IMG/VR virus record: IMGVR_UViG_3300000101_000008
Location: 37,269 to 101,268 of that record
Source of the DNA: a virus
DNA length: 64,000 nt
Direction: 5' to 3' (one strand)
Position 1 is the first letter of the stretch. Every line of letters starts with the position of its first letter. Positions 7,691 through 58,016 of the stretch are shown in pieces. A program made the translations under genes and the position numbers. The notes beneath the pieces are model-generated. The model was not told where the DNA came from, searched no databases, and worked only from the letters and a program-made list of their open reading frames with translations.

Positions 7691-7698
7691 GATAAATA
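7691..7698 (+). promoter_or_regulatory. Late-type promoter box GATAAATA
   Basis: GATAAATA lies in the gap before the 7750 gene and matches the T4 late box TATAAATA except at the first base. The 15 bases GGATAAATATTAGTA recur exactly at 30801. The predicted start near 7704 gives a leader of about 46 bases containing an AGGAG ribosome site. Confidence 0.6.
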
Positions 7699-34813: not shown

Positions 34814-34840
34814 AATAGGGCTTCCGGGCCCTATTTTTTT
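34814..34840 (+). terminator. Intrinsic terminator before gp17
   Basis: The stem TAGGGC (34816-34821) pairs with GCCCTA (34828-34833), extended by AA/TT, with a TTCCGG loop and a seven-base T run. It separates the gp16 unit from gp17. Confidence 0.85.
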
Positions 34841-39730: not shown

Positions 39731-40825
39731 ATGGCGAATAAAGCGTTTGATCCTACTAAGTTTAGGACACAACTAACTAAATCCATTTCAGGAATGAGTG
39801 CAGGGTTCAATGACCCGACTGATTGGATTAGTACAGGAAATTATGCACTCAACTATCTTATCTCAGGAGACTTTCATAAAGGTGTTCCGCTAGGTAAGGT
39901 ATCTGTTTTTGCAGGAGAATCAGGTGCAGGTAAATCATATATCTGTGCAGGTAACATTGTAAAAGCGGCACAAGACCAAGGCATCTTTGTAGTCTTAATT
40001 GATTCAGAGAATGCACTTGACGAAGCGTGGCTACAAGCATTAGATGTAGACACAGCAGATGACAAACTACTAAAACTTAATATGTCAATGATTGATGATG
40101 TTGCTAAAACAGTATCAACATTTATGATTGACTATAAAGAAATGAACGAAGAAGAACGTCCTAAAGTATTATTTGTTATTGACTCACTAGGTATGCTATT
40201 AACACCAACAGATGTTGATCAGTTTCAAAAGGGTGATATGAAAGGTGATATGGGTCGTAAGCCTAAAGCACTAACATCACTTGTACGTAATACTGTTAAC
40301 ATGATTGGTTCACATAACGTAGGCTTAGTGTGTACTAACCATACATATGCATCACAAGATATGTTTGATCCAGATGACAAGATATCAGGTGGTCAAGGCT
40401 TTATCTATGCATCTTCAATTGTTGTAGCAATGAAAAAACTAAAACTAAAAGAAGATGAAGATGGTAACAAGATCAGTCAAGTTATGGGTATTCGTGCAGG
40501 CTGTAAGGTAATGAAAACTAGATATGCAAAACCTTTCGAGGCAGTGCAAGTTAAAATTCCTTATGAAACAGGCATGAATCCATATAGCGGACTATTGGAG
40601 TTATTTGAAGCAAAAGGTGTCATTGAAAAACAAGGTAACAGACTAAAGTATGTTTCCAGCGATGGCGAAGAAATCTTAGAATATCGTAAGAAATGGATCG
40701 GCGAAAACCTCGATACTGTTATGTCAGATTATCTAATAAAAGAAGCGACTTTGGTAAATACCTCGGACGACGAATCTATTATAGATGAAGTAGAATTAGA
40801 CGACATACAAACAATCGAGGAGTAG
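39731..40825 (+). CDS. uvsX: RecA-like recombinase UvsX
   Basis: This 364-residue protein carries Walker A GESGAGKS (residues about 63-70). Walker B is VLFVIDSLGMLLTP (about 139-152). The KISGGQGFIYASSIVV segment follows where RecA has its DNA-binding loops and inter-subunit motifs. T4 UvsX is 391 residues. It forms filaments on ssDNA and catalyses strand invasion with UvsY and gp32. The C-terminus is acidic. ACAGGAG precedes the ATG. It is followed after three bases by a small acidic gene. Confidence 0.95.
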   Translation: MANKAFDPTKFRTQLTKSISGMSAGFNDPTDWISTGNYALNYLISGDFHKGVPLGKVSVFAGESGAGKSYICAGNIVKAAQDQGIFVVLIDSENALDEAWLQALDVDTADDKLLKLNMSMIDDVAKTVSTFMIDYKEMNEEERPKVLFVIDSLGMLLTPTDVDQFQKGDMKGDMGRKPKALTSLVRNTVNMIGSHNVGLVCTNHTYASQDMFDPDDKISGGQGFIYASSIVVAMKKLKLKEDEDGNKISQVMGIRAGCKVMKTRYAKPFEAVQVKIPYETGMNPYSGLLELFEAKGVIEKQGNRLKYVSSDGEEILEYRKKWIGENLDTVMSDYLIKEATLVNTSDDESIIDEVELDDIQTIEE

Positions 40826-41062: not shown

Positions 41063-41518
41063 ATGGGTTGGTATAGCGAAGTATCTAGAGACATTAACAA
41101 GATACCTAATGCAGTTACATTCTATGAAAGTGAACTAATTGACGCAAAGAAAGAAGTTAAATTAGTTGGCAGTGTAGAAAAAGCATCAGCGGCTATGCCA
41201 GGCATAGTAGAACACAGGTTCAATCAATTACAAGAGATTGAAGCAATCCTAAACTATCTAAACATTGAGCTACGCAGGTTGCGTAGTTCATACTTTAAAA
41301 AATACTTAGAAAATTATCAACGAGCTCTGTCTAGTCGCGACGTAGAAAAATACGTTGACGGCGAGGCAGACGTTGTTGATTATGAAAAAATTATTAACGA
41401 GTTTGCACTAATGCGTAATAAGTGGTTAGGTGTCTTAAAAGGACTTGATCAAAAGCAATGGCAAATAACAAACGTAGTTAAACTACGTGTAGCAGGTATG
41501 GAAGATGCTACGCTATGA
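41063..41518 (+). CDS. uvsY: Recombination mediator UvsY
   Basis: This 151-residue protein matches marine T4-like UvsY. It has FYESELIDAKKEVKLVG and VEKASAAMPGIVEHRFNQLQ, then EAILNYLNIELRRLRSSYFKKYL and ALSSRDVEKYVDGEADVVDY. T4 UvsY is 137 residues. It loads UvsX onto gp32-covered ssDNA. Lying just after uvsX, it forms a recombination operon (gp32, uvsX, small acidic gene, uvsY) under the 38574 promoter. It overlaps the following methyltransferase by 4 bases (ATGA), linking the recombination operon to the glycan island. Confidence 0.9.
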   Translation: MGWYSEVSRDINKIPNAVTFYESELIDAKKEVKLVGSVEKASAAMPGIVEHRFNQLQEIEAILNYLNIELRRLRSSYFKKYLENYQRALSSRDVEKYVDGEADVVDYEKIINEFALMRNKWLGVLKGLDQKQWQITNVVKLRVAGMEDATL

Positions 41519-42168
41519 CACAATACTACAGTCAAATAGAACAAGACAAATATTATATTGAAAATATATCACGTGGCAAACGTGAAGGATTCTATTTAGA
41601 TATTGGTGCTAATGATGGAGTATTTACAAGTAATACTGCTACATTAGACTACTCCTTTGGCTGGAAAGGTATTTGTATAGAAGCAAATCCGCATTTAATA
41701 CCGCAACTACAAAACAACAGACAGCATAGTACAGTAGTACATTGTGCTGTTTTTAATACTAACGGTGAAGTTACTTTTGAAATTCCTTTAAGTGAACATA
41801 AGGATATTCGAGGAGACTTGTTATCTAGAATTACAAACGTAGATTTAGATGCTAGAAATAAAAAATACTTTAAAAAACATTTTAAAGATAAAACAGAAAC
41901 TACAACAGTAACAAGCAAAACTGTTACCACAATATTACAAGAGAATCATAAATTGCCATGTACAGTTGACTACATGAGTTTGGATACAGAAGGTGCTGAA
42001 CTAGAAGCATTACAAGGTATAGACTTTAGTAAAATTACAATAAAGTTTATGACTATTGAACATGGTAATAGAAAAGGCATGATTGAAAAGTTAACGGATT
42101 ACCTATCACCACATGGATACAAAGTACATAGAATCAATAAGTGGGATATAGAATTTGAGCATGAATAG
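41515..42168 (+). CDS. FkbM-family methyltransferase
   Basis: This 217-residue protein has SAM motif I FYLDIGANDGVFTSNT (about residues 26-41), then GICIEANP and the FkbM hallmark LDTEGAELEALQGIDF (about 152-167). FkbM enzymes usually O-methylate sugars or glycolipids, and they are frequent in phage and bacterial surface-polysaccharide clusters. It is the first gene of the glycan island and overlaps uvsY by 4 bases. The likely role is capping or decorating a glycan made by the following genes; this is inferred from context. Confidence 0.85.
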   Translation: MTQYYSQIEQDKYYIENISRGKREGFYLDIGANDGVFTSNTATLDYSFGWKGICIEANPHLIPQLQNNRQHSTVVHCAVFNTNGEVTFEIPLSEHKDIRGDLLSRITNVDLDARNKKYFKKHFKDKTETTTVTSKTVTTILQENHKLPCTVDYMSLDTEGAELEALQGIDFSKITIKFMTIEHGNRKGMIEKLTDYLSPHGYKVHRINKWDIEFEHE

Positions 42169-43384
42169 TTGGGACGTATTTGATACACTAATTGCACGTA
42201 GGTTCTTTTATCCTAAAACAGTACATGAAGAAACTGCTAGACGTATTAACGATTCTAACTACGTTAAAAAACGTATACGTGCTGAAAAAGCAACTAAGAA
42301 AGACGAAGGCAACTTCGAAGACATCTATAAACTGTTACCTGAGTACGATCCACAAGTTGAATTACAAGTAGAACTTGAACACTTATTTCCAATAGTAGAA
42401 AATATAAACAAAGTCAAAGACGGTGACTTAATACTAAGTGACATGTATCTTAGTGCAGATGAAATTATGAAAATATTACGCAACTGCGGACTAACAAAAA
42501 ATGTAGATATTATTGTTACTAGGTATGGTAAGCGTCACGGATACATTTGGGATAGTGTAAAACAGAAGTATAACATAGATACACACTATGGAGATAACGA
42601 ACATAGCGATGTTAAAACTGCACAAGCAAACGGAGTTAATGGCGTCTTAGACACGCTTACACACTTCACAGAGCTTGAACAAATGGCATATGAAGTAGAT
42701 CCACAACTAGCATGTTGGATGCGTAAAACTAGGTTATTATGTCCACATACAGGCGATGCAAAGAAGTATTGGATTGAGCAAGCAAACTTAAACTTGCCTG
42801 TACTAGCACTTGCTACACTAGAACTACCAGATAGAGATATTGCTTTTACATATAGAGACTGTTGTAATTGGCAACCGTTATACGAAGCAATGACTGGTAA
42901 GAAAAGTAAGATGCTTATTACTAGTAGGAAAATGTATTTAGAACCTAACAAACACTTTAAAGAATATATAGATAGAACGATTGATGCTAACACAACTATA
43001 GTAGATTTGCAAGGTGAAGGCAATAGCATTTATAAATTTTATAACCAAGCACCACCGCATACAATATACATAGGAGGAAAGACACTTCCTTACATTGATC
43101 GTCTTGTACCGTTTGCTACAAAGAGTTTAGAAAAACACAACTGCTATCAGTTTGGCCCAGTAATTGATTGGGACGAAGATGGACCTATTAGAGGACCAAA
43201 CGATCATCCTCAACAGATTGCAAAGATACAATATAATGCAATAGCTAGTGCAATTAGTATTTGTGATTTATTTAAACCTAAGCCTAACAAGGAACTATTG
43301 TTAAAGTTTGTTGAACGTATGCACAGTAAAGAATATGCAACAACAAATATTAAATGGGCAAAGTTTAATGAGCAAAAGAAATGA
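42161..43384 (+). CDS. HAD-superfamily hydrolase-like protein
   Basis: This 407-residue protein has HAD motif I SWDVFDTLIARR at the start, ILSDMYLSADEI (about residues 92-103) as the motif II region, and HYGDNEHSDVKTAQANGV (about 147-164) as motif IV. The C-terminal half is another alpha/beta domain with no clear match. This arrangement is common in polysaccharide loci. It may act as a phosphatase on a sugar phosphate. The ATG at 42161, inside the end of the FkbM gene, was preferred to the TTG at 42155. It overlaps the next gene by 4 bases. Confidence 0.7.
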   Translation: MNSWDVFDTLIARRFFYPKTVHEETARRINDSNYVKKRIRAEKATKKDEGNFEDIYKLLPEYDPQVELQVELEHLFPIVENINKVKDGDLILSDMYLSADEIMKILRNCGLTKNVDIIVTRYGKRHGYIWDSVKQKYNIDTHYGDNEHSDVKTAQANGVNGVLDTLTHFTELEQMAYEVDPQLACWMRKTRLLCPHTGDAKKYWIEQANLNLPVLALATLELPDRDIAFTYRDCCNWQPLYEAMTGKKSKMLITSRKMYLEPNKHFKEYIDRTIDANTTIVDLQGEGNSIYKFYNQAPPHTIYIGGKTLPYIDRLVPFATKSLEKHNCYQFGPVIDWDEDGPIRGPNDHPQQIAKIQYNAIASAISICDLFKPKPNKELLLKFVERMHSKEYATTNIKWAKFNEQKK

Positions 43385-44367
43385 AAGGCGTAGCAGTAAT
43401 AGGCGCAAGTAAGTCATCTGGAATACTAAAGCGTATGTTATACGCACATGGACATACATTTGATTTAAAAAGTTGTTTAGATTCTAACTATGCTGATTTT
43501 TATTTCCAAACAAATATCTTAAAACATTATGAAGGAAAGAAAGTAACTAGAGATGCATTTGAATTTATTGCACGTAGTGATAAACCTTCTATTGTAAACG
43601 AAAGTCCTATCTTTAGAGATTTACAAGGTAACAGTAAATTAACTAAATGGCACAGGCTTGCTTGGAATAGTTACTTTTATAATACTGGCACGTATCCAAA
43701 AGACTGTCCTAGTGACCGTTGGGAAATGATGCAAAAGGATTTTGATTTACAAATAAACCCTTGGGACGATAACGGCGATTATGTATTACTATGCTTACAG
43801 AAAATTGGTGATAGTAGTTTAAATCATTTGTATAAAAAATACAATACCGACACAGCCTGGCAAGCATACACCTTATGGTTAAAAGATACACTAGACGAAA
43901 TACGTAGAAATACAGATAGAAAAATTGTAATACGCCCACACCCAAATAATATGCGACCACAAGTAAGATACTTTTCAGAGTTAGCAAGCAAATATACAAA
44001 TGTGGTAATGAGTAGCAACTTTGAATACAACGGAAGTGTTACTATGGCACCCAGCGGTGGGCTTAAAAAGGACATTTTAGACTCAAAATGCGTTATAGTT
44101 TTTAGTAGTTTAACGGCAGTTGAGAGCATTTTTAATGGCAAACCAACGTATACATTAGACCCAAGTTCAGTAGCATCACCTATTGCTAGAAGCAATTTAC
44201 ATCATATTGAGACTGCTTGGCAACCCGTTGATAGACAACAATGGTTAAATGATATGAGTTATGCACAGTGGACAGGTGAAGAAATACAAAGAGGTGATCC
44301 CTGGCATACATTACATTCTTTATTTGAACAAGCCAAGACACAAAAGCATACACAAATCATGCAATAA
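43381..44367 (+). CDS. KpsC/KpsS-like capsule glycosyltransferase, paralogue A
   Basis: This 328-residue protein has the GT-B-like C-terminal pattern of capsule transferases. GDYVLLCLQKIGDSS lies near residue 125. EIRRNTDRKIVIRPHPNN carries the His-Pro pair, followed by CVIVFSSLTAVESIFNGKPT. It ends YAQWTGEEIQRGDPWHTL. KpsC and KpsS enzymes add beta-Kdo residues at the base of capsules. Three related genes follow in this island (45792, 47254, 49744). With KdsA and KdsB also present, Kdo transfer is a reasonable hypothesis. Donor and acceptor are not shown by sequence. Confidence 0.65.
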   Translation: MKGVAVIGASKSSGILKRMLYAHGHTFDLKSCLDSNYADFYFQTNILKHYEGKKVTRDAFEFIARSDKPSIVNESPIFRDLQGNSKLTKWHRLAWNSYFYNTGTYPKDCPSDRWEMMQKDFDLQINPWDDNGDYVLLCLQKIGDSSLNHLYKKYNTDTAWQAYTLWLKDTLDEIRRNTDRKIVIRPHPNNMRPQVRYFSELASKYTNVVMSSNFEYNGSVTMAPSGGLKKDILDSKCVIVFSSLTAVESIFNGKPTYTLDPSSVASPIARSNLHHIETAWQPVDRQQWLNDMSYAQWTGEEIQRGDPWHTLHSLFEQAKTQKHTQIMQ

Positions 44368-44370
44368 ATA
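44363..44370 (+). promoter_or_regulatory. Late-type box AATAAATA, leaderless position
   Basis: GCAATAAATATCTACATG: the box overlaps the stop of the previous gene and ends 6 bases before the ATG at 44376. It places part of the glycan island under late control. Confidence 0.6.
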
Positions 44371-44375
44371 TCTAC

Positions 44376-45137
44376 ATGAACGTAGTATTAGTAACCGGCG
44401 GCTTTGATCCGCTACACTCAGGACACATAGAATATTTTATAGAAGCAAAGAAACTCGGCGACAAACTTGTTGTTGGTGTTAATACAGATGCTTGGTTAAA
44501 ACGCAAGAAAGGTCGTCCGTTTATGCCCGGCGGCGAACGCATTTCAATTATAAAAAACTTATCAATGGTTGATCATTGTTTGTTATTTGGTGACGATGAC
44601 GATAGTGCTATTGAAGCAATAAACAATGTTAGACTGTTATATCCTGATGCACATATCATATTTGCAAACGGCGGAGATAGAACATCTGAGAATATTCCAG
44701 AGATGGAAGCAGATGTAGAAAATATTTCTTTTAAATTCGGCGTAGGCGGAGAGATCAAAGCCAACAGTAGTAGTTGGATACTTGACGAGTGGAAAACACA
44801 AAAGACTGAACGTGATTGGGGCTATTGGCGTGTACTAGATGACAAGCCAGACAAAGGTTACAAAGTAAAAGAGCTTGTAATATATCCAGGTAAATCACTC
44901 AGTGATCAAAAACACTTTAAGCGTTCAGAAGAATGGAATGTGCTAGAAGGCACAGTTAAAATGGACACTGAATGGAATAGTATACAAAGTAGTATAATAC
45001 TAGAACCAAAAAGTAGAACATTTGAAATTGGTGAACAAGTTTGGCATAAGGCAAGCAATCCTGGAACAGAGAACACTCATATACTAGAAGTACAATGGGG
45101 CGACTGTTATGAAGAAGATATAGAAAGAAGAGATTAA
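44376..45137 (+). CDS. Cytidylyltransferase-like / cupin fusion protein
   Basis: This is a 253-residue two-domain protein. Residues 1-~130 are a nucleotidyltransferase of the glycerol-phosphate cytidylyltransferase / RfaE type: GGFDPLHSGHIEYF carries the HxGH motif, and GGDRTSENIPE the later strand. Residues ~165-253 form a cupin like the end of mannose-6-phosphate isomerases (LVIYPGKSLSDQKHFKRSEEW, QVWHKASNPG). It probably activates a sugar phosphate or polyol phosphate with CTP or ATP for the island. The start sits on the predicted transcription start and has no ribosome site. It overlaps the next gene by one base. Confidence 0.75.
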   Translation: MNVVLVTGGFDPLHSGHIEYFIEAKKLGDKLVVGVNTDAWLKRKKGRPFMPGGERISIIKNLSMVDHCLLFGDDDDSAIEAINNVRLLYPDAHIIFANGGDRTSENIPEMEADVENISFKFGVGGEIKANSSSWILDEWKTQKTERDWGYWRVLDDKPDKGYKVKELVIYPGKSLSDQKHFKRSEEWNVLEGTVKMDTEWNSIQSSIILEPKSRTFEIGEQVWHKASNPGTENTHILEVQWGDCYEEDIERRD

Positions 45138-45808
45138 TGAAAGTATTCATAGGCTACGAACCAAGAGAAGATATGGCTTATCAAGTGTGTAAACATAGCA
45201 TACTAAAGCATCAACCCGATGCAGATGTACGTCCACTAGTACAAAAAGAATTAAGACAAGCAGGATGGTACAAGCGTCCTGAAGATAAACTTGCATCAAC
45301 AGAATTTACATTTACACGTTTCTTAGTACCAGAGCTTGCTAACTATAAAGGCTGGGCTTTGTTTATGGATTGTGATATGTTGCTTACAACAGACATTAAA
45401 GAATTATTTGATCAAGCAGATGACAAGTATGCTGTTATGTGTGTGCAACATGATTACACACCTAAAGAAAGCACAAAGATGGATGGGCAAAAGCAAACTA
45501 TCTATCCACGAAAGAACTGGTCAAGTGTTGTGTTATGGAACTGTAGTCATCCTAGTAATAAAGTTGTTGACCAAGATCAAGTTAACAGTTTAGAATTAAA
45601 TGGTGCATACTTTCATAGGTTTAGTTGGCTACAAGATGAAGAAATTGGCGAACTAGATCATACATGGAACTACTTAGTAGGTGTGTACGACGATATTGAA
45701 AAACCTAAATTAATTCATTTCACTGAAGGAGGTCCTTGGTTTGAAAACTATAGAGACTGTCAGTTTAATGAATTATGGAAACAAGAACTGTATGATATGT
45801 TTAAGTAA
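45137..45808 (+). CDS. DxD glycosyltransferase (GT-A type), copy 1
   Basis: This 223-residue protein has an N-terminal KVFIGYEPREDMAYQVCKHS strand-helix. GWALFMDCDMLLTTDI (about residues 72-87) provides the DxD metal site. Later come the acidic KPKLIHFTEGGPWFENY segments, in which His and Gly follow as in GT8-type enzymes. It would transfer a sugar from a nucleotide-sugar donor to an unknown acceptor. It overlaps both its neighbours. Three other DxD proteins of the same general type are in the island (46565, 48165, and 48854 on the minus strand). Confidence 0.75.
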   Translation: MKVFIGYEPREDMAYQVCKHSILKHQPDADVRPLVQKELRQAGWYKRPEDKLASTEFTFTRFLVPELANYKGWALFMDCDMLLTTDIKELFDQADDKYAVMCVQHDYTPKESTKMDGQKQTIYPRKNWSSVVLWNCSHPSNKVVDQDQVNSLELNGAYFHRFSWLQDEEIGELDHTWNYLVGVYDDIEKPKLIHFTEGGPWFENYRDCQFNELWKQELYDMFK

Positions 45809-46568
45809 AAATAAAACAGATCAATATATAAACATGTTTGCTAAAAGTGCAAACTTGCCTATATACGACTATAGCGACTTTCCAGACAATGTCCCTATTG
45901 TAATACGTAGCATGGGCAAACGAAAACTTATACACGAATGTTGGAAGAACAAAAGAGACTTTTACTATATGGATAGTGGTTATGTAGGAAACTACAAGTC
46001 ATCAATAAATCCAAACGGTTGGAAACAATGGCATCGTATAGTAAAGAATGATGTACAACACAACGAAATAATAGACAGACCAAACGACAGATGGAACCGA
46101 CTACAACAAGCAATACACAAACCTAAGAAAGGTGGCGCACATATATTACTTGTTACACCTAGTGAAAAGCCTTGTAAGTTTTATGGTATTGATAGAGATC
46201 AATGGGTCAAAGATACTGTTAACGAAATAGAAAAGCATACAGATAGAACTATTATAATTAGAGACAAAGCACCACGACAAAGTCGTATAGACAAAACTAT
46301 ATATGATGACTTAGACAACTGTCATGCAATGGTTACATATCAAAGCATAGCGGCAGTAGAAAGTGTGTTATATGGCGTCTCAGCGTTTACTACAGCGCCT
46401 ACAGCGGCTGATCCAGTGTGCGATAAGGATATTAGTCGTATTGAAAGTCCAACACAACAAGACTCGCATAAAGTATATAAATGGGCATGTCACTTAGCAT
46501 ACGGACAATTCCATAATGAAGAATTACAAAACGGTACAGCACATAGAATAATAAAGGGCCTAGTATGA
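45792..46568 (+). CDS. KpsC/KpsS-like glycosyltransferase, paralogue B
   Basis: This 258-residue protein is shorter than its three relatives. It has GGAHILLVTPSEKP, then DTVNEIEKHTDRTIIIRDK (the usual RxHP is replaced by RDKAPR), and CHAMVTYQSIAAVESVLYGV. It ends with WACHLAYGQFHNEELQNG. The missing His-Pro could reduce or change activity. The start at 45792 overlaps the end of the DxD transferase by 17 bases; ATGs at 45741 and 45768 would overlap more and have no better ribosome site. It overlaps the next gene by four bases. Confidence 0.6.
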   Translation: MICLSKNKTDQYINMFAKSANLPIYDYSDFPDNVPIVIRSMGKRKLIHECWKNKRDFYYMDSGYVGNYKSSINPNGWKQWHRIVKNDVQHNEIIDRPNDRWNRLQQAIHKPKKGGAHILLVTPSEKPCKFYGIDRDQWVKDTVNEIEKHTDRTIIIRDKAPRQSRIDKTIYDDLDNCHAMVTYQSIAAVESVLYGVSAFTTAPTAADPVCDKDISRIESPTQQDSHKVYKWACHLAYGQFHNEELQNGTAHRIIKGLV

Positions 46569-47257
46569 AATTAAAATTTGTTACAAGTATATCAAAAAAC
46601 TATTGGAAAGGCGTTGGCAAGCATTGTATTAGCACATGGGACTTACCCGGCAAAGTAGAAATATATATTGACCAACACGAAGGTGATGTTGAATGGTTTA
46701 ACGAATTGCCTTTTAACAAAAGATTGTTACATGTACCTGCATTAGATGTTGACAGCGAGTTTGATGTTAATACTAAAATAAGAAAGTTCTGGGGTAAAAG
46801 TGTAGCACAAATACATGCTATAAAAAATAGACAAGAGGACGAAAGAATAATTTGGTTAGACGCAGACATAGAACAAATGCGTAAAGTGCCCGAAGAAGCA
46901 TTTAGTTTTCCATTTATAAATCCAGTTGCTATGATGCAAAGTAATAATTCACACCCTGACTGTTACGAATCAGGACTTGTATTGTTTAATGAAGAATACG
47001 AAAAATTAACATTATGGTCAAACAAGTATTGGGCATTTTGGAATGATCAAAACAAACTAGAAAGTTTACACAAACCTTATGATGCTATTGTACTTGGTAA
47101 CTTTGCTAAAGGTGAAAAAGCAGGCTTCTTAAATTTATGTGACGATGTATGTGAAAATGTAAATGCATTAGAAAATACACGCTTTAGTTTATATTTCAAA
47201 CATCATATTAATAAAACTAATAAAGACAAACTTAAACATACATTGGCATCAACATGA
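46565..47257 (+). CDS. DxD glycosyltransferase-like protein, copy 2
   Basis: This 230-residue protein starts KLKFVTSISKNYWKGVG. It has the DxD-type site in ERIIWLDADIEQMRKVP (about residues 93-109) and a downstream NSHPDCYESGLVLFNEEYE segment. The fold would be GT-A. The same motif layout occurs in the 48165 protein, so these two are probably paralogues. It overlaps KpsC/S-like genes by 4 bases on both sides (ATGA), supporting coupled synthesis and perhaps paired action. Sugar and acceptor unknown. Confidence 0.65.
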   Translation: MKLKFVTSISKNYWKGVGKHCISTWDLPGKVEIYIDQHEGDVEWFNELPFNKRLLHVPALDVDSEFDVNTKIRKFWGKSVAQIHAIKNRQEDERIIWLDADIEQMRKVPEEAFSFPFINPVAMMQSNNSHPDCYESGLVLFNEEYEKLTLWSNKYWAFWNDQNKLESLHKPYDAIVLGNFAKGEKAGFLNLCDDVCENVNALENTRFSLYFKHHINKTNKDKLKHTLAST

Positions 47258-48168
47258 AATCTGTAAGAATTTACTACGCAGGTATTCCCGCACATAATAA
47301 AAATTTAGAAAAAAGACAAGTTCTAACAAGTTTCCATAATGGCGTAGGCACTGATGGAGAAAGTTTAGAAATTCAAACACCTAACTGGGAACCAAGTGAC
47401 TTAGGTGTTATACAAGGATGGGTACATGCAAATAGCGGTAGTACTCCACACTTAATGTTTCGCAGACAAGTAATACAACAACAAAAACTTATTGGCAAAC
47501 ATACACTTGCTATTGATAGTAATTTATTCTTATATAGAGATCCAGGTAATACTAAACAGTATCTACGTTTTAGTTTAGATGATGTATTTCCAACCACAGG
47601 TAATTACTTTACAGATAATGTAGACCCTACACGCTGGCAACAATTAAAACGCAACTTAGGTTTTGATTTGCACCCGTGGACTAACAAAGGCAAGCACATA
47701 CTATTATGTTTACAACGCAATGGCGGTTGGAGCATGGGCGGATATGACGTAATGGATTGGTGTAATAAAACTATTAAAGAAATACAACAACACACTGATA
47801 GAGATATTATAGTTAGAGCGCACCCTGGAGATAAGAAAGCAAAACAATACTTGACTTTGAACTATCCGGGTGTTAAGATAAGCACAGCACCGTCTATATT
47901 AGACGATTTTAGAAAATGCTGGGCAGTAGTTACATACAACAGTAGCCCAGGCGTAGCGGCGGCGATAGAGGGTATTCCTGTGTTTATAACAGACCCTAAT
48001 GCTAAAGTTAGTCAAGCATATGATGTAGGCAATACAGATTTAAGTCAACTAGACAATCCAATACGTCCTGAAAGACAACAGTGGATTGAAAAACTAGCAA
48101 TGAGTCATTTTAATTTTGCAGATTTAGAAAAAGGAACTGCATGGAATATTATTAAGGAGTACCTATGA
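47254..48168 (+). CDS. KpsC/KpsS-like glycosyltransferase, paralogue C
   Basis: This 304-residue protein has the full set of family landmarks: HPWTNKGKHILLCLQRNGG, then EIQQHTDRDIIVRAHPGDKK with the His-Pro, and CWAVVTYNSSPGVAAAIEGIPV. It ends MSHFNFADLEKGTAW. It is closest in layout to the 43381 and 49744 proteins. It lies between two DxD transferases with 4-base overlaps at each end. Transfer of Kdo or a related acidic sugar is the working hypothesis. Confidence 0.65.
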   Translation: MKSVRIYYAGIPAHNKNLEKRQVLTSFHNGVGTDGESLEIQTPNWEPSDLGVIQGWVHANSGSTPHLMFRRQVIQQQKLIGKHTLAIDSNLFLYRDPGNTKQYLRFSLDDVFPTTGNYFTDNVDPTRWQQLKRNLGFDLHPWTNKGKHILLCLQRNGGWSMGGYDVMDWCNKTIKEIQQHTDRDIIVRAHPGDKKAKQYLTLNYPGVKISTAPSILDDFRKCWAVVTYNSSPGVAAAIEGIPVFITDPNAKVSQAYDVGNTDLSQLDNPIRPERQQWIEKLAMSHFNFADLEKGTAWNIIKEYL

Positions 48169-48872
48169 AATACGCAGGTATAACTAGTATGAATCAATCA
48201 TATTATGATCGTTGTGGTTCTAATATGTTGAATACGTTTAAGAAACATTGGTCACACTTAATAAAATTGCATGTTTATAATGAAGATAACTTCTCATTAA
48301 ATGATGATACGTTTATTGAAATGGGTTGGGACTTAGGCGATGCATACGAATCATTTCAAGCAAGACATAAAAATAAAAGAGTAAAAACATTTGCTAAAAA
48401 AGGCTTTAGTATTATACATGCTATGGATAATATTGACGCTGATAGAATTATTTGGATTGATGCAGATACAATAATTAAGAAGCCTTTTGACCTAGCAGTG
48501 TTTGGAAATATTACACAAGATAAGTTTTTAAGTTCGCATTTACAAGTATGGCATAACAAAAATGACATTGACTATTATAGTTGTGAAACAGGATTCTTTG
48601 TTTTAAATACAAGACACAAAGGCTACAAAGAGTTTTGTGATACATACAAAGACATTTATTATAATGATAAACGTGAAGGTATGCGTAGATTTTATGATGG
48701 AGAAATTTACGGTAAAACTGTACAAGCAATGCACAGTAGAAACTTTAAAATGTATAATATGACATACGGGGATCGTGTAAAAACACCTGTGCCTAGAAGT
48801 CCATTAGCACCATTTATTGAACACAATAAAGCAGGATTAAAAGAACGTATTGACTACGACTTAGTCCAATAG
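48165..48872 (+). CDS. DxD glycosyltransferase-like protein, copy 3
   Basis: This 235-residue protein starts KYAGITSMNQSYYDRCG and has DRIIWIDADTIIKKPFD (about residues 90-106) as the DxD site. Next come a YYSCETGFFVLN segment like that of GT-A acceptor regions, and EIYGKTVQAMHS. It is probably a paralogue of the 46565 protein. Its last 19 bases overlap the convergent minus-strand transferase, so two glycosyltransferase genes meet tail to tail here. Confidence 0.65.
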   Translation: MKYAGITSMNQSYYDRCGSNMLNTFKKHWSHLIKLHVYNEDNFSLNDDTFIEMGWDLGDAYESFQARHKNKRVKTFAKKGFSIIHAMDNIDADRIIWIDADTIIKKPFDLAVFGNITQDKFLSSHLQVWHNKNDIDYYSCETGFFVLNTRHKGYKEFCDTYKDIYYNDKREGMRRFYDGEIYGKTVQAMHSRNFKMYNMTYGDRVKTPVPRSPLAPFIEHNKAGLKERIDYDLVQ

Positions 48873-49702
48873 TCTTCTTTTCTATTAACCATTATATCTG
48901 TACGTTTGCTCTTGCCAGCAGTTTTACGATCACCTTTCATGTGATCCATCCATCTACCTAGTTCAGTATTAATTAAAGGATGTCCGCCGCCACCTGTACG
49001 TGCTTCACGCATATACATAGTAGCACTATAGTCAAATGCATTAGCATCAAATTCTTTATAATGTTTTAGTATGTGTCCAAACACATAACTGTCGTGCCAT
49101 TCTTCCAATTCAAAAATACCGTTGTCTGCATCTTCGTACATACGTTCAAACTCTTTAAGGAACTCGTGACACACAGGATGATTTAAGTTCATACCATAAA
49201 AGCCGCACTCTGGCCATGTCTGCGATCCTTTGCCTCTACCTACATATGTAATGTAAGCATTGTTAGGTAGTAAGCGAGAAAAGTCTTTGTGCTTCCAAGG
49301 ACTGTGAATAAATGTATCTGCGTCCATCCATACACACCAACCTTTGCTACGTTCACACGCATCAAACACTGCATAAGTTTTGTTAGCAAAACGTATAGCG
49401 TCCCACTTAAACTTCTTTTGCCAATCTCTTGGTCTACGTGCTTTAATATCATCTGGAGGAATACCATTTGCTTTGTCTACGTTACCCCAACGCTGTTTAA
49501 ATTTTACAAGTTTAGGTAACTCTTTAGTTGCATCTAATATTGTAATTTGTTCTGGATTAGGATTAACAGGATTACAATCTTCTGCATATACTAGCAGTTT
49601 GATCTTATCACTTACGTTCTCAGCAAATGAATCTATCATACGCTGTCCATATAATTTTAAACCCGGACGGTGAAACGTTGTAACCACAGTTATGTCTGAC
49701 AT
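48854..49702 (-). CDS. DxD glycosyltransferase-like protein on the minus strand
   Basis: This 282-residue protein starts ITVVTTFHRPGLKLYGQRM, with the DxD site WCVWMDADTFIHSPW (about residues 122-136). GSQTWPECGFYGMNLNHP follows, and its Cys-Gly-Phe region parallels the CETGFF segment of the 48165 protein. It is the only gene of the island on the minus strand. A purine-rich GAGAGAG lies upstream of the ATG. It faces away from the 49744 gene across a 41-base gap. Confidence 0.7.
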   Translation of the reverse strand: MSDITVVTTFHRPGLKLYGQRMIDSFAENVSDKIKLLVYAEDCNPVNPNPEQITILDATKELPKLVKFKQRWGNVDKANGIPPDDIKARRPRDWQKKFKWDAIRFANKTYAVFDACERSKGWCVWMDADTFIHSPWKHKDFSRLLPNNAYITYVGRGKGSQTWPECGFYGMNLNHPVCHEFLKEFERMYEDADNGIFELEEWHDSYVFGHILKHYKEFDANAFDYSATMYMREARTGGGGHPLINTELGRWMDHMKGDRKTAGKSKRTDIMVNRKEDYWTKS

Positions 49703-49716
49703 TATACTCTCTCTTG

Positions 49717-49722
49717 TAAATA
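49717..49722 (+). promoter_or_regulatory. Late-type box TGTAAATA before paralogue D
   Basis: CTTGTAAATAGCTTATAGG lies in the gap between the divergent 48854 and 49744 genes. The predicted start near 49728 gives a leader of about 16 bases with ATAGGAA. Confidence 0.45.
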
Positions 49723-49743
49723 GCTTATAGGAATATTTAACTT

Positions 49744-50592
49744 ATGAGATTCAGTTTATGGACACAATATGGCGCACAGAATAGCAGATCGGTTTTTGAT
49801 GCCTTTGCTCACAGCCTTGTGGTTGCTGGGCATGATGTTTTGTATAATACTAGTGGCTGTGACGTTGACGTCATTTGGAGTGTTCTTTGGAGTGGTAGAA
49901 TGGCTCCAAACGAAAATATCTGGAAGCAAGCAGTACAACAATCGAAACCGATAATAGTTTTAGAGGTCGGCGGCATAAGAAGAGGTACAACATGGAAGGT
50001 TGGACTCAATGGCATTAATAGGGACGCTTACTTTGGCCCTAGTAGCACAGATAGCAATCGTGCTAACAGTTTTAACATCAAGTTAAAAGACTGGAACTAT
50101 AACGGCGAATACATTTTACTATGTGGGCAACACGACAAAAGCCTGCAATGGGCAACCATGCCTCCAATGTCTCGCTGGGTACACGACACAATAACATTCA
50201 TAAGAGCGCAAACGAAACGTCCTATCATATTTAGGCCTCATCCTAGATGCAGACTTGAAGCAATTGAAAGAGACTTCAAAGATGTAATAAGACAAGAACC
50301 GCGACAAATACTAGGTTCATATGACGACTTCGATATGAAGTTTGATAACATATGGGCTACTATAAGCTGGTCAAGCAATCCAGGCATACACAGTATTATT
50401 AATGGTGTGCCTGCATTTACAGGACCTAGCAGTCTAGCATTTGATGTTGCTGATCAAAACTTTCGCAACATAGAGAATCCTCTTTATCTAGATAGAACTA
50501 AATGGGTCAACGACTATGCTTGGACAGAATTTACTTTAGAAGAAATATCTCAGGGAATACCACTTAAACGCTTGACTTCTAAGCTAACATAG
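49744..50592 (+). CDS. KpsC/KpsS-like glycosyltransferase, paralogue D
   Basis: This 282-residue protein has NYNGEYILLCGQHDKSLQW, then RPIIFRPHPRCRLEAIE with the His-Pro, and WATISWSSNPGIHSIINGVP. It ends with YAWTEFTLEEISQGIP, the same block order as paralogues A and C. It ends the glycan island. Its 3' end contains the -35 element of the next gene's promoter. Like the others it has no signal peptide or membrane helix, so it should work at the cytoplasmic face of the inner membrane or on phage proteins. Confidence 0.65.
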   Translation: MRFSLWTQYGAQNSRSVFDAFAHSLVVAGHDVLYNTSGCDVDVIWSVLWSGRMAPNENIWKQAVQQSKPIIVLEVGGIRRGTTWKVGLNGINRDAYFGPSSTDSNRANSFNIKLKDWNYNGEYILLCGQHDKSLQWATMPPMSRWVHDTITFIRAQTKRPIIFRPHPRCRLEAIERDFKDVIRQEPRQILGSYDDFDMKFDNIWATISWSSNPGIHSIINGVPAFTGPSSLAFDVADQNFRNIENPLYLDRTKWVNDYAWTEFTLEEISQGIPLKRLTSKLT

Positions 50593-50606: not shown

Positions 50607-51839
50607 ATGGAAACATTAGAAGATTGCATAGAACATCTTGTCGGAATACAGTCAAGAGAAACAGATAAGTTTGATATAGATAGTAGCGACTATAACTTAC
50701 TTACTAGCCTCGCCCGCCAGACCTTCAAAGGCACAGCATATACAGATAGGCAAGCAGAACTTGCTAAACAAAAACTGTTGCAATATAAAGATCAGTTTGA
50801 TGCTAACGGATATAACATTGATGATTCTTATAGTAATTTAAGAATGCCGTTACGTTCAATAGACAGAAGTCGTTGGGTTAAAGTATTTGACGAAGAACAT
50901 TTAATTTCAGATGAAGAAGGACCTTGGATAGGTGTAAGATTTATTTTTCAAAAGAAACTAATAACTGCTATTGAAAGAATGAATAAGTTTCTAGGCGAAG
51001 GCTTATACGACAAAGTAGAAAAGATACACTACTTTAAATTTAATGAAAACACATGCTACGAAATAATTAATACATTTAATGAAAACAACAACTTTGAAGT
51101 TGAGGATCAGTTACTAGAATATTATGAGAAGTTATTAGAAATGAAAAAAAATCAAGACAAATACGTACCGGGAATATATTCGTTTAAACTAAAAAATTTA
51201 CATGAGAAAAGTTTTAACTTTGCTATTAGCAGTATAGGTGAACCTAATATAGATAACCTATGTAACTATTACGACAAAAAAGATCAGTTTGGATTAGAAC
51301 ATTTTGATCAAGAAGAGTTACAACAAAGTTTAAAATCATTAACTCCGCTTGCACAAAAAGTAGTAAACAGAAGTCAAGCAAGTATATTTGTAAACAATAA
51401 AGAACACACTGTTAACAATCTTGCTGAAGTAGTATTAGAGTTATATAGATTTCCGTTAGTTATTGTACTACATGAAGATACTTGCTACGATCATTTAACA
51501 CAATTTAATAAGGCCTTTCAAAATATTATACCTAGCGAACGCATGTCTGTAATGTTTAGATTAGATAATACTCCAGAAGGAAAACCGTTTAACGAATACA
51601 TTAAACAACACAATATTAATAATGTGGTTGACAAAGACACAAAAATAGTGTATATTAGTAGTAATAAAATACCGAAACCACTTTTAAAAAGTGAATGGTT
51701 TCCTAGCGCGGCTATAACAACATTTGCTGGAAAAGCATATGGTGATGCAAAAACTAGTACATACATAGGAGAATTAGATTTGATAATACATTATGACAAT
51801 CAGCTTAGTCCTTTTATGAGAAAAATTGAGACGATATAA
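50607..51839 (+). CDS. Hypothetical early protein upstream of uvsW
   Basis: This 410-residue alpha/beta protein has no motif I recognise. It has an acidic N-terminus, a PWIGVRFIFQKKLITAIERM segment (about residues 107-126) and a charged helical middle. The C-terminal half is more globular (FPLVIVLHEDTCYDHL, TKIVYISSNKIPKPLLKSEW). Its stop abuts the uvsW ATG, so it is cotranscribed with that helicase. The promoter is sigma70-like and the mRNA is predicted to be leaderless. A role in replication or recombination with UvsW is inferred from linkage. Confidence 0.65.
   Translation: METLEDCIEHLVGIQSRETDKFDIDSSDYNLLTSLARQTFKGTAYTDRQAELAKQKLLQYKDQFDANGYNIDDSYSNLRMPLRSIDRSRWVKVFDEEHLISDEEGPWIGVRFIFQKKLITAIERMNKFLGEGLYDKVEKIHYFKFNENTCYEIINTFNENNNFEVEDQLLEYYEKLLEMKKNQDKYVPGIYSFKLKNLHEKSFNFAISSIGEPNIDNLCNYYDKKDQFGLEHFDQEELQQSLKSLTPLAQKVVNRSQASIFVNNKEHTVNNLAEVVLELYRFPLVIVLHEDTCYDHLTQFNKAFQNIIPSERMSVMFRLDNTPEGKPFNEYIKQHNINNVVDKDTKIVYISSNKIPKPLLKSEWFPSAAITTFAGKAYGDAKTSTYIGELDLIIHYDNQLSPFMRKIETI
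51628..51656 (+). promoter_or_regulatory. Possible internal sigma70-type promoter for uvsW
   Basis: TTGACA (51628-51633), 17 bases, TATATT (51651-51656), inside the end of the 50607 gene and about 180 bases before uvsW. It may be chance in this AT-rich DNA. Confidence 0.3.
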
Positions 51840-53824: not shown

Positions 53825-54181
53825 ATGAAAGCAGGAAAGATTTGGGGTCAGACAGAATTGATCCACGCTAACGGTGTACTAGAGTTTCACCGCATTGAAT
53901 ACAAAGCAGGTTACAAGTGTTCTGAACACGAACATCAATATAAATGGAATGGCTTTTTTGTAGAGTCAGGAAAAATGATTGTACGTGTTTGGCAAGAAGA
54001 CCAAGGACTAGTTGATGAAACTATTCTTGGCCCTGGTGACTTTACACAAGTAAGGCCAGGAAAAATTCACCAGTTTGAAGGTTTAGAAGATGGTGTCGCT
54101 TTTGAACTATACTGGGCTGAATTCAATCACGATGACATTGTTCGTCGAACATCTGGCACCGCAACAGGAAAGAAGAAATAG
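53825..54181 (+). CDS. Cupin-fold protein
   Basis: This is a 118-residue single-domain cupin. The first motif is CSEHEHQYKWNGFFVESGKM with His-x-His and a later Glu, and the second is GPGDFTQVRPGKIHQFEGLE with the final His. Both match a metal-binding RmlC-like barrel. The residues VRVWQEDQG and FELYWAEF fill the strands between. AAGGAG lies 7 bases before the ATG. The substrate is unknown. It is followed directly by the transporter gene. Confidence 0.75.
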   Translation: MKAGKIWGQTELIHANGVLEFHRIEYKAGYKCSEHEHQYKWNGFFVESGKMIVRVWQEDQGLVDETILGPGDFTQVRPGKIHQFEGLEDGVAFELYWAEFNHDDIVRRTSGTATGKKK

Positions 54182-54182
54182 A

Positions 54183-54791
54183 ATGTTTAAAAACATCGAT
54201 GTAAAGATGATGCTAAAACTTGCGCTGTTGCAAGTTGTAGTCATCACAGTAAGTAACGCACTAGTTGCGATTCCAGTAGAGATTGCTGGATTTAAATTAA
54301 CTTGGGCGGCATTTACGTTCCCATTAGTTATTCTAGCAACTGACTTAACAGTACGTTTGTTAGGTAAGAACATTGCTAGAGCAACTATTGCCGCGGCATA
54401 TCCAATTGCAATTATCACAAGTATTGCAGTAGTATTAGCAGAAGGTGCACCAGAGAGTGTAGCAATGCGTATTGGATTTGCATCAGCAACAGCATATGCT
54501 GTAGGTACGTTTATTGACGTATATGTATTCCAAGCAATTAGAGAGCGTATGAATGTTTGGTGGTTAGCACCTGCATTATCAACTATTGTTGCAAACGTAA
54601 TTGATAGTTACACGTTCTTTGCAGTTGCATTCAACAACAGCGCCGATGAGTATATGGCCGCTAACTGGATGGAAATTGCAGGCTCACAGGCTGTACTAAA
54701 AATTGCAGTAGGCTTAATATTATTCCTACCAGCATATGGCTTATTGTTACGTTACCTAAAAGGTAAAATGAGTGATACTGAAGCAGGTTAA
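54183..54791 (+). CDS. Queuosine-precursor-type transporter (YhhQ/QPTR family)
   Basis: This 202-residue membrane protein has about six hydrophobic helices and the family landmarks: FPLVILATDLTVRLLGKNIAR (early helices and loop), FASATAYAVGTFIDVYVFQ, then WWLAPALSTIVANVIDSYTF. YhhQ proteins import preQ0/preQ1, precursors of queuosine and of deazaguanine bases. The ATG at 54183 follows the cupin stop by one base and fits the helix pattern; the ORF from 54090 would add a hydrophilic start. In the phage it could feed host tRNA queuosine or a 7-deazaguanine DNA modification. Confidence 0.85.
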   Translation: MFKNIDVKMMLKLALLQVVVITVSNALVAIPVEIAGFKLTWAAFTFPLVILATDLTVRLLGKNIARATIAAAYPIAIITSIAVVLAEGAPESVAMRIGFASATAYAVGTFIDVYVFQAIRERMNVWWLAPALSTIVANVIDSYTFFAVAFNNSADEYMAANWMEIAGSQAVLKIAVGLILFLPAYGLLLRYLKGKMSDTEAG

Positions 54792-56349: not shown

Positions 56350-56563
56350 AATAGCAGGAGTACTATTCTTATTATTAGGAATATATTTTTTAATTCAAGA
56401 TATGATGCCATTGTCAATGGGCTTTGGTGCGGCAATGGAACACAACATGCCAGCACACAACAATACATTATTAGGCATTAGCGAAATGACTTGGATGTGG
56501 TTTACAATGGCACTAGTACATTTCTTTATACGTGATTGTAATTGCAAGGAGTGTAACAAGTGA
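56339..56563 (+). CDS. Small membrane protein
   Basis: This 74-residue protein has two likely membrane helices: KIAGVLFLLLGIYFLIQDMM (residues about 4-23) and MTWMWFTMALVHFFI (about 50-64). The C-terminus is Cys-rich (DCNCKECNK). The ATG at 56339 was chosen because AAGAAGGA lies upstream and the helix then starts near the N-terminus; the ORF from 56279 overlaps the small zinc-finger gene almost entirely. Its stop overlaps the GTG of kdsA (GTGA). Function is unknown; a small inner membrane protein next to Kdo genes is suggestive. Confidence 0.65.
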   Translation: MRHKIAGVLFLLLGIYFLIQDMMPLSMGFGAAMEHNMPAHNNTLLGISEMTWMWFTMALVHFFIRDCNCKECNK

Positions 56564-57339
56564 GAATTATAGCAGGACCTTGTCAACACGAATCGTTGCC
56601 ACAAAGTTTAGAGATTGCTAAAGAGTGTAAACGTGTATGCGACAAGTATGGTATTGAGTATTACTTCAAAGCAAGTTACGACAAAGCCAATCGTTCAAGC
56701 GAAAGTGGTATTCGTGGTCTAGGATTAGAAACAACGCTACTAGACTTCCTAGCACTTAAAGTAGAGCTAGGTGTAAAGACACTAACTGACGTACACGACT
56801 ATGTACAAGTTGCACGTATTGAACGAGAATTTAGAGATGCAGTTGATGTCTATCAGATACCTGCATTCTTGTGTAGACAGACTGACTTGATCAAAGCGGC
56901 TTGTGCTACAGATAAAATTGTTAATATTAAAAAAGGTCAGTTTATGGCACCTTGGGATATGAAAGGTGTGCTAAGTAAAACTGAAGAAGCAAAAGAAGTT
57001 TGGATTACTGAAAGGGGAACTAGTTTTGGCTATAACAATCTTGTCGTTGACTATACTGGTCTTATGTATATGCTCGACAATTATGAACATGATGTTATTT
57101 TTGATTGTACGCACTCTGCCCAAAAACCCGGAGGACAAGGTACTAGCTCAGGTGGCAATCGTAATTACGTGCCTGGGTTGGCTCGTAGCGGGAGTGCTCT
57201 TGGGGTCCGGAATTTTTTCTTGGAAGTCCATCCTAACCCTGATGTAGCACCAAGCGATGGTCCTAATATGCTACGCTTACAAGACTTTGAACAAGTAGTA
57301 AAAGATATTGTAGCATACAGTTATGGTTGGTATGAATGA
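56560..57339 (+). CDS. kdsA: 3-deoxy-8-phosphooctulonate synthase KdsA
   Basis: This 259-residue TIM-barrel enzyme condenses arabinose-5-phosphate and phosphoenolpyruvate to Kdo-8-phosphate. Family landmarks include an IIAGPCQHES start, YYFKASYDKANRSS (substrate Lys and Asn), LTDVHDYVQV, DVYQIPAFLCRQTDLI, KKGQFMAPWDM, TERGTSFGYNNLVVD, DCTHSAQKPGG and EVHPNPDVAPSDGPNML. All expected active-site stretches are intact. The E. coli enzyme is 284 residues. The GTG start overlaps the previous stop. It overlaps kdsB by 4 bases, so the two Kdo genes form a unit. Confidence 0.95.
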   Translation: MRIIAGPCQHESLPQSLEIAKECKRVCDKYGIEYYFKASYDKANRSSESGIRGLGLETTLLDFLALKVELGVKTLTDVHDYVQVARIEREFRDAVDVYQIPAFLCRQTDLIKAACATDKIVNIKKGQFMAPWDMKGVLSKTEEAKEVWITERGTSFGYNNLVVDYTGLMYMLDNYEHDVIFDCTHSAQKPGGQGTSSGGNRNYVPGLARSGSALGVRNFFLEVHPNPDVAPSDGPNMLRLQDFEQVVKDIVAYSYGWYE

Positions 57340-58016
57340 AAACTGCAATACTAATTCCTGCACGTTACGGTAGCACACGCTTACCTGGAAAGCCATTGTG
57401 TATGTTAGATGGTGTGCCTATGATAAAACGTGTGTATGACGCTTGTATTGCGTCTAAGATACCAACATACGTGCTTACTGATGATCCACGCATTGCTAGT
57501 GTATTTCAAAACACAAGTGTTATTATAGATGACACAGACTATGCAAATGGCACTGAAAGATGTGCAGGTGCAATCAAACTAGACTATATGCAGAAGTATA
57601 ATAAGTTTATAAATGTACAAGGTGATATGCCTGATGTAACATTGCAGATGATAGAACGCTGTGTAGAATGGTTACAATATTATCCTGTTAGTACAGTGTT
57701 TACAAACATGCCCGAAGACAAACAAAACGATCCTAACTCAGTTAAGATGGTTAGAGCAGGTGATCAAGCATTGTGGTTTGGCAGAGGGATGACAGGTTAC
57801 GGAGAATGGCATTTAGGCGTTTATGGCTACAAACGCAACTCGCTAGAAATGTATCCTAACTTAATTGTAGAACGCGAAGAAGAAATTGAAAAACTGGAAC
57901 AGCTTCGGTGGCTCAAAAACGGTTGGCAAATTGGCTGTTCTAGTGTATACTATAATGGAGTAGAGATAAATTCACCAAAGGACATTGTTACATGGCATAT
58001 CAAGAATTCCCAGTAA
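57336..58016 (+). CDS. kdsB: CMP-Kdo synthetase KdsB
   Basis: This 226-residue protein has IPARYGSTRLPGKPL (CTP-binding loop), then TERCAGAIKLDYMQKYNKFINVQGDMPDV, in which QGDMP carries the metal-binding Asp. HLGVYGYKRNSLEMYPNL follows near residue 160. It activates Kdo with CTP to CMP-Kdo for transfer. E. coli KdsB is 248 residues. The usual YFSR stretch before the IP residues is replaced by WFGRGMTGYGEW, a change that might alter substrate choice. Its end overlaps the next gene by 25 bases. Confidence 0.85.
   Translation: MKTAILIPARYGSTRLPGKPLCMLDGVPMIKRVYDACIASKIPTYVLTDDPRIASVFQNTSVIIDDTDYANGTERCAGAIKLDYMQKYNKFINVQGDMPDVTLQMIERCVEWLQYYPVSTVFTNMPEDKQNDPNSVKMVRAGDQALWFGRGMTGYGEWHLGVYGYKRNSLEMYPNLIVEREEEIEKLEQLRWLKNGWQIGCSSVYYNGVEINSPKDIVTWHIKNSQ
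57924..57952 (+). promoter_or_regulatory. Sigma70-like promoter inside kdsB for the gp62-like gene
   Basis: TTGGCA (57924-57929), 17 bases, TATACT (57947-57952). The predicted start near 57959 gives a 33-base leader with AAAGGAC before the ATG at 57992. It could separate replication genes from the Kdo unit. Confidence 0.5.

Follow-up and report, generated by a model that had tools for sequence, protein, structure and literature searches.

A glycan-gene island with KpsC-fold proteins, associated with kdsA and kdsB, in a large uncultured T4-like marine phage

The DNA considered here, called the window throughout, is a stretch of 64,000 nucleotides (positions 37269-101268) of the 101,268-bp uncultivated virus record IMGVR_UViG_3300000101_000008, and its source is a large uncultured T4-like marine phage. 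Between the recombination genes uvsY and uvsW it carries an island of glycan genes, dominated by four mutually related proteins with the fold of the capsule transferase KpsC (here K1 to K4) and four glycosyltransferases of the GT-A type (G1 to G4), and further downstream lie genes for the synthesis and activation of 3-deoxy-D-manno-oct-2-ulosonic acid (Kdo). With about even confidence, we read the island and the kdsA-kdsB pair together as a phage-encoded, soluble and largely late pathway that attaches a Kdo-type glycan to an acceptor in the cytoplasm, most likely a virion protein. What the computation shows directly is the identity of the genes, their fold, synteny and paralogy, the conservation of the promoter motif and the near-lack of membrane proteins.

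What ties the island to Kdo is a pair of genes 6 kb downstream of it; they are the strongest evidence, and were overlooked in an earlier reading of this DNA (the original prediction), whose account of the island ended before them:

56560..57339, + strand: kdsA, Kdo-8-phosphate synthase (TIGR01362, 317.8 bits against a cut-off of 314; NF003543, 328.8 against 242; PF00793, 1.8e-53)
57336..58016, + strand: kdsB, cytidine monophosphate (CMP)-Kdo synthetase (PF02348, 7e-25, above cut-off), overlapping kdsA by 4 bases

For kdsB the KdsB models of NCBIfam rank best yet remain below their cut-offs (NF003952, 1.6e-47; TIGR00466, 105.3 vs. 155.2), and KdsB proteins account for 13 of its 14 matches in the PDB, including the best (1gq9, 1.1e-26). 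kdsA was found in 16 of the 40 records tested, just past uvsW in the loci that were mapped, and many of the negative records stop short of that point; complete copies are mostly 68-76% identical. It was not found in Phosso and Vibrio 2.275.O, the two island-less isolates tested. Among isolated or named phages, relatives with more than 40% identity were limited to Synechococcus phage S-SCSM2R, two Acinetobacter phage records and one uncultured phage. A 335-kb contig in a Neomarinimicrobiota bin has the island and kdsA/kdsB in the same order as the window, and the same bin holds, on another contig, a second kdsA/kdsB pair (45% and 31% identical) that is probably the bacterium's own. The 335-kb contig itself looks like a jumbo phage; it (PBPT01000016.1) and PBPT01000082.1 are jumbo-phage contigs of this lineage, near-identical over the island and both filed in that bin.

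All of the genes that the original prediction had recognized in the island (an FkbM methyltransferase, a HAD-like protein, four K proteins, a nucleotidyltransferase-cupin fusion and four GT-A-like transferases) are present where it had put them, the eleven lying between uvsY and a gene at 50607 that adjoins uvsW:

41515..42168, + strand: FkbM-family methyltransferase (PF05050, 2.6e-17; TIGR01444, 1.3e-17, above cut-off), with a 4-base overlap with uvsY
42161..43384, + strand: HAD-like protein, possible sugar-phosphate phosphatase, with N-terminal DVFDTL and internal SDMYLS motifs
43381..44367, + strand: K1, KpsC-fold transferase with the full QXXXD and RXHP signature (TIGR04396, 1.7e-6, below its cut-off)
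44363..44370, + strand: late-type promoter motif AATAAATA upstream of CT-cupin, conserved among relatives
44376..45137, + strand: CT-cupin, an HldE-type nucleotidyltransferase fused to a type-II phosphomannose isomerase cupin (PF01467, 7.9e-13; PF01050, 1.5e-16)
45137..45808, + strand: G1, GT8-like GT-A transferase (PF01501, 1.4e-6; phrog_28018, 7.4e-52)
45792..46568, + strand: K2, KpsC-fold relative without HP and without QXXXD; start likely 45792
46565..47257, + strand: G2, DxD GT-A transferase, with the aspartates invariant in its family
47254..48168, + strand: K3, KpsC-fold transferase (AlphaFold model and PDB fold matches), RXHP kept, QRNGG in place of QXXXD
48165..48872, + strand: G3, DxD GT-A transferase, from the alignment of the G2-G4 family
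48854..49702, - strand: G4, DxD GT-A transferase, modelled, divergent from K4
49716..49740, both strands: TAAATA-type sequence element between the divergent G4 and K4
49744..50592, + strand: K4, KpsC-fold transferase, from homology to K1-K3, tree clade and synteny
50607..51839, + strand: conserved gene of 410 amino acids, of no Pfam family, marking the island boundary by its synteny between K4 and uvsW

The four K proteins are homologous, a search with K4 matching the other three in the same record (E values of 1e-17, 5e-17 and 6e-8), and the sequence blocks that had been named as common to them can be aligned. In a tree of 90 K proteins they fall into four old paralogue clades (K1 with a support of 99, K3 95 and K4 100; the K2 clade makes up 29 of the 30 rows of a set with 100), each found in many phages. 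On this phylogeny K1 to K4 are ancient paralogues, and the duplications originally proposed are genuine but older than this phage. The model of K3, the only K protein modelled (predicted local distance difference test, pLDDT, 96.7), has as its best 28 matches in the PDB exclusively retaining beta-Kdo transferases (KpsC, WbbB, KrkA), led by KpsC at an E value of 1.9e-8. Template-modelling (TM) scores to these enzymes are about 0.5, and the relation is therefore one at the level of the fold. The label KpsC/S-like thus holds for the fold and fails as a family assignment: none of K1-K4 matches the KpsC/KpsS family of Pfam (Capsule_synth, PF05159) above the gathering score, QXXXD is absent from most, and the K2 type is without the CMP motif. 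K profiles gave nothing useful against PDB sequences at E values up to 1, and Pfam, PHROGs and NCBIfam named no K family apart from weak matches to TIGR04396 and BFO_1060.

In beta-Kdo transferases QXXXD is the nucleophile motif and (K/R)XHP the CMP-binding motif (PMC12887879, PMC10148158), with RXHP binding CMP in transferases for both Kdo and sialic acid (PMC12887879). RXHP is found in 59 of the 90 K proteins, including K1, K3 and K4, and is missing from the K2 type, while alignment column 88, which falls in the N-terminal domain, has an acidic residue in every one of the 90 (D in 60, E in 30), comparable with Glu102 of KrkA (PMC12887879). K1 alone among K1-K4 has both QXXXD and RXHP and is therefore a candidate retaining Kdo transferase; Q140/D144 and H187/P188 are invariant in the K1 alignment. 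At the QXXXD site K3 reads QRNGG, K4 QHDKS and K2 PSEKP, and K3 and K4 may be CMP-sugar transferases with another mechanism. The K family is not classed with the retaining beta-Kdo transferases (GT99/GT107/GT140). It does present a natural series, with QXXXD kept or lost and HP kept or lost, for studying how the mechanism of Kdo transferases changes.

The K proteins might alternatively be GT-B relatives of the TagF kind that use cytidine diphosphate-polyols or other donors, with kdsA and kdsB serving another purpose such as maintenance of the host's lipopolysaccharide (LPS). TagF and the UDP-GlcNAc (uridine diphosphate-N-acetylglucosamine) 2-epimerases follow the Kdo transferases among the matches to the K3 fold (5e-5 to 9e-6), and both the lack of QXXXD from most K proteins and a resemblance of the CT domain to glycerol-3-phosphate cytidylyltransferase would suit this explanation. 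We consider it improbable: the Kdo transferases hold all of the 28 best places, the best of them ahead by two to three orders of magnitude; the CT domain fits an HldE-type enzyme far better (TIGR02199, 5.1e-22, below its cut-off, vs. 5.5e-10 for glycerol-3-phosphate cytidylyltransferase); and CMP-Kdo synthesis is encoded in the same genomes.

The cytidylyltransferase-cupin fusion is as originally described, with PF01467 and PF01050 in one protein. In some relatives an island protein of 442-445 amino acids contains a second CTP_transf_3 domain (at about 4.3-4.7 kb in loci L067 and L068, and at 137759 in the L048 record), which suggests another CMP-sugar there. The four predicted DxD transferases are all present and GT-A-like; they belong, though, to two families, and the profiles of G1 and of G2-G4 align weakly (probability 5.6). 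G1 is a GT8 by PF01501 (28.5 bits vs. a cut-off of 24.3), and among 27 aligned sequences the first D of its DCD never varies and the second shows at least 90% conservation. For the G2-G4 family, 60 aligned sequences have D127, D129 and D204 invariant (G4 numbering), and the model of G4 (pLDDT 92.7) is GT-A, with GT6-type enzymes as its best PDB matches followed by other GT-A proteins.

This gene set is a recurrent one. The K alignment found 260 relatives among viral contigs, the best 80 of which gave 79 loci, and iterated hidden Markov models applied to 86 loci plus the window recovered 287 K open reading frames (ORFs), about 122 of the G2-G4 family and 79 of G1. The island occupies the slot between uvsY and the 50607-type gene plus uvsW in most loci, and in at least 40 uncultured phages. 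Complete islands have 2-5 K genes (n=40). G1 comes next after CT-cupin in 63 of 70 loci, and a K gene stands directly 5' of the 50607-type gene in 46 of 49; the 50607-type gene itself almost always has the last K gene on one side and uvsW on the other, and is possibly an old neighbour marking the boundary of insertion. Accessory genes vary, and include methyltransferases, GDP-mannose dehydratase, epimerases, sulfotransferase, pyruvyl transferase and aminotransferase, among others. The alternation of K and DxD genes noted originally is there in part in the window and is not conserved, many relatives having runs of K genes. The isolated jumbo relatives Phosso, Vibrio 2.275.O and Munch show the order uvsX-uvsY-uvsW, interrupted by few extra genes at most, and no recognised or annotated glycan genes in the slot. 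A search of genome contigs with a second alignment (A6) found no relative, and five loci from a scan with the K1 alignment (A8) were rejected as cellular genes, since phage uvsX or uvsW occurs next to the island or elsewhere in the bin concerned.

Two late-type promoters had been predicted inside the island. The strict late promoter TATAAATA does not occur in the window; its local form is NATAAATA, most often GATAAATA, with 11 occurrences on the + strand and 1 on the - strand; most stand 13-60 bases ahead of a + strand gene, in many cases a structural one. Within 45 bases 5' of CT-cupin, NATAAATA is found in 32 of 51 distinct sequences, against a mean of 1.7 and a maximum of 7 after shuffling, a count that is inflated by relatedness, though the surrounding bases nonetheless differ widely, and it was found in none of the distinct sequences upstream of uvsX, uvsY, uvsW, gp32, kdsA and kdsB in the relatives. 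The promoter predicted before CT-cupin (AATAAATA, 44363) is thus backed by conservation, and the one near 49716 is a TAAATA-type element in the gap between G4 and K4, with TAAATA preceding 19 of 34 G genes on the minus strand and 17 of 36 K4 genes. Because of the motif before CT-cupin and the TAAATA in this gap, much of the island looks late: to judge from the sequence, FkbM, HAD and K1 run on from uvsY and the rest would be largely late-expressed. Elsewhere in the window NATAAATA motifs stand just 5' of + strand genes at 7691, 15783, 18778, 24442, 30052, 30802, 33040, 33567 and 61104.

Membrane segments are absent from 310 of the 316 accessory ORFs and from nearly all K, G and CT proteins (the Vut_1 transporter, used as a control, has a score of 2-4). 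The Pfam families listed (25 of 61) include no flippase, polymerase, initiating or polytopic membrane transferase or exporter. The prediction of a phage-coded glycan pathway with duplicated transferases is upheld by the fold search, the tree and the synteny; that its product is a repeating polymer is not, as no polymerase, flippase or exporter was found. Its target had been given as the surface or the virion. Since the enzymes are soluble and late, and the virion is the obvious acceptor in the cytoplasm, we favour a virion protein, which the late promoter and the soluble enzymes support without proving.

The main rival is a role in reshaping the LPS or capsule of the infected host by way of its own lipid carriers and exporters, blocking superinfection or progeny adsorption ('lock-out'). 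Kdo, HldE-type and FkbM or sulfotransferase functions are typical of LPS and capsules, and the accessory GDP-mannose dehydratase, epimerases and pyruvyl transferases point the same way; the islands, however, show no membrane-bound transferase, flippase, polymerase or ABC (ATP-binding cassette) exporter, and a conserved late promoter would act late for lock-out in a lytic phage. We regard this explanation as possible, if somewhat doubtful. T4-like phages glycosylate hydroxymethylcytosine, and soluble transferases would fit a role in glycosylating modified bases of phage DNA as well. That role seems to us very improbable, as it accords poorly with the late promoter and with Kdo- and capsule-type enzymes, and no thymidylate synthase/hydroxymethylase homologue was found in the G000 record (a fragment), in the 256-kb and 167-kb records or in the 335-kb phage contig.

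We infer Kdo as the donor, the order of the sugars and the virion as the target. In the pathway we favour, KdsA and KdsB would make Kdo-8-phosphate and CMP-Kdo, leaving the arabinose-5-phosphate isomerase and Kdo-8-phosphatase steps (whose genes were not specifically searched for) to either the host or the HAD protein, and CT-cupin would make a second activated sugar. The KpsC-fold enzymes, most plausibly those with RXHP, would transfer Kdo or another ulosonic acid related to it, and G1-G4 ordinary nucleoside diphosphate-sugars, with methyltransferases, and in relatives also sulfo- and pyruvyl-transferases, decorating the product. CT-cupin, G1, K2, G2, K3, G3 and the G4/K4 pair would be expressed from the late-type promoters, and a virion protein would be decorated in the cytoplasm, the lineage swapping cassettes to vary its coat.

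Several observations weigh against this proposal. kdsA was not found in the K-bearing phages Mosig, ct7QV12 and CcrColossus, nor in island loci L054, L056, L070, L073 and L081, which extend 4-6 kb past uvsW, nor in the L069 record; since island loci without kdsA exist, the link between the two is frequent and not obligatory. QXXXD is kept in just 16 of the 90 K proteins, all K1-type, the K3 and K4 types retaining only the Q and HP, and the K2 type neither. The late motif is not upstream of FkbM, HAD, K1, kdsA or kdsB in the window. Flippase, polymerase and lipid carrier might all come from the host, which makes soluble enzymes compatible with a surface target as well.

The known systems nearest to the K proteins are KpsC (GT107), WbbB (GT99) and KrkA (GT140), which resemble them in the predicted fold of K3, in the RXHP of the HP-type proteins and in the QXXXD of the K1 type; they differ in that the K proteins have no detectable family-level sequence relation to them, have lost QXXXD in the K2, K3 and K4 types and HP in K2, and occur as four paralogues in this phage genome. 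Marine T4-like phages are known to carry LPS-type genes, with KdsA in one environmental genome (TARA) and a lock-out hypothesis (PMC5332604), and viral kdsA/kdsB are already known from metagenomes (PMC10653327). The P-SSM2-type cyanophages and the TARA genome share with our phage the combination of sugar-nucleotide and transferase genes, the HldE-type nucleotidyltransferase and, in the one T4-like environmental genome, KdsA. Ours differs in the fixed uvsY-uvsW slot in a jumbo lineage, the multi-paralogue KpsC-fold family, the downstream kdsA-kdsB and the conserved late motif. Pelagibacter phage Mosig EXVC030M, Caulobacter phage CcrColossus and podovirus ct7QV12 also have K genes beside GT-A, methyltransferase or sulfotransferase genes, though only one or two, at another genome position and with no kdsA/kdsB found. 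In CcrColossus (L086, 4991-6675) two K genes lie close behind a tail gene, beside a nucleotide-sugar transferase, offering a cultured model for tests of virion glycosylation.

Among giant viruses, a Kdo pathway has been predicted for CroV and Fadolivirus, and the virions of PBCV-1 and mimivirus are glycosylated (PMC9614988). Kdo synthesis would be virus-encoded there as here; these viruses differ in having eukaryotic hosts, another gene organisation, and isomerase and phosphatase domains, none of which was seen here, though no specific search for such genes was made. Four K-fold proteins of Tetraselmis virus 1 (BFVD A0A2P0VNK4, A0A2P0VP54, A0A2P0VP74 and A0A2P0VP72; TM 0.73-0.75) link the phages with a eukaryotic giant virus; 2-keto sugar acids occur in the theca of its algal host genus (PMC10762512). 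A literature search, most subscription papers lying outside it, gave no report describing the conserved island, the family of K proteins or the association of that family with kdsA/kdsB. More tentatively, and with rather less than even confidence, we propose that a jumbo-phage lineage builds a Kdo glycan on its virions from its own CMP-Kdo, through a new, phage-restricted KpsC-fold family in which some members have no nucleophile and would use another mechanism, with variation by cassette, as a prokaryotic counterpart of giant-virus glycosylation. Glycosylation genes are common in marine phages and seldom tied to a defined sugar; here the fold, the CMP-binding motif, kdsA/kdsB and the conserved late motif point to one testable chemistry, that of Kdo, and to expression late in infection. 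Should the virions indeed carry the glycan, the phage would offer a defined example of a virus that makes itself an LPS- or capsule-type sugar coat.

As to the phage itself, the window has T4-like replication genes (gp32 at 38670, uvsX at 39731, uvsY at 41063 and uvsW at 51840) and structural genes (terminase at 34839, plus tail sheath and tail tube). Its terminase and UvsX are closest to those of jumbo phages (PA5oct, Phosso, Atu_ph07, Vibrio 2.275.O and the 121Q/Munch type). The 'moraphage' lineage, which has four core glycosyltransferases (PMC12619734), was considered and rejected: it lies outside the established T4-like groups, whereas terminase and UvsX here are near PA5oct, Phosso, Atu_ph07 and the 121Q type.

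Within the island, the joining of genes by 4-base overlaps described originally is seen at uvsY/FkbM, HAD/K1, K2/G2, G2/K3 and K3/G3, but CT-cupin and G1 overlap by 1 base and FkbM and HAD by 8; the start of K2 falls within the 3' end of G1. The HAD-like protein, for which a Pfam search gave no family, has a weak PDB match to residues 476-602 of the Bcs3 capsule polymerase (5.7e-5). An ORF of 2438 amino acids without any Pfam match lies near the tail genes (366-7682), and the interval between uvsW and kdsA contains, with a cupin and a methyltransferase, a gene for a Vut_1 (queuosine-precursor-type) transporter (54090-54791) that is also present in several relatives.

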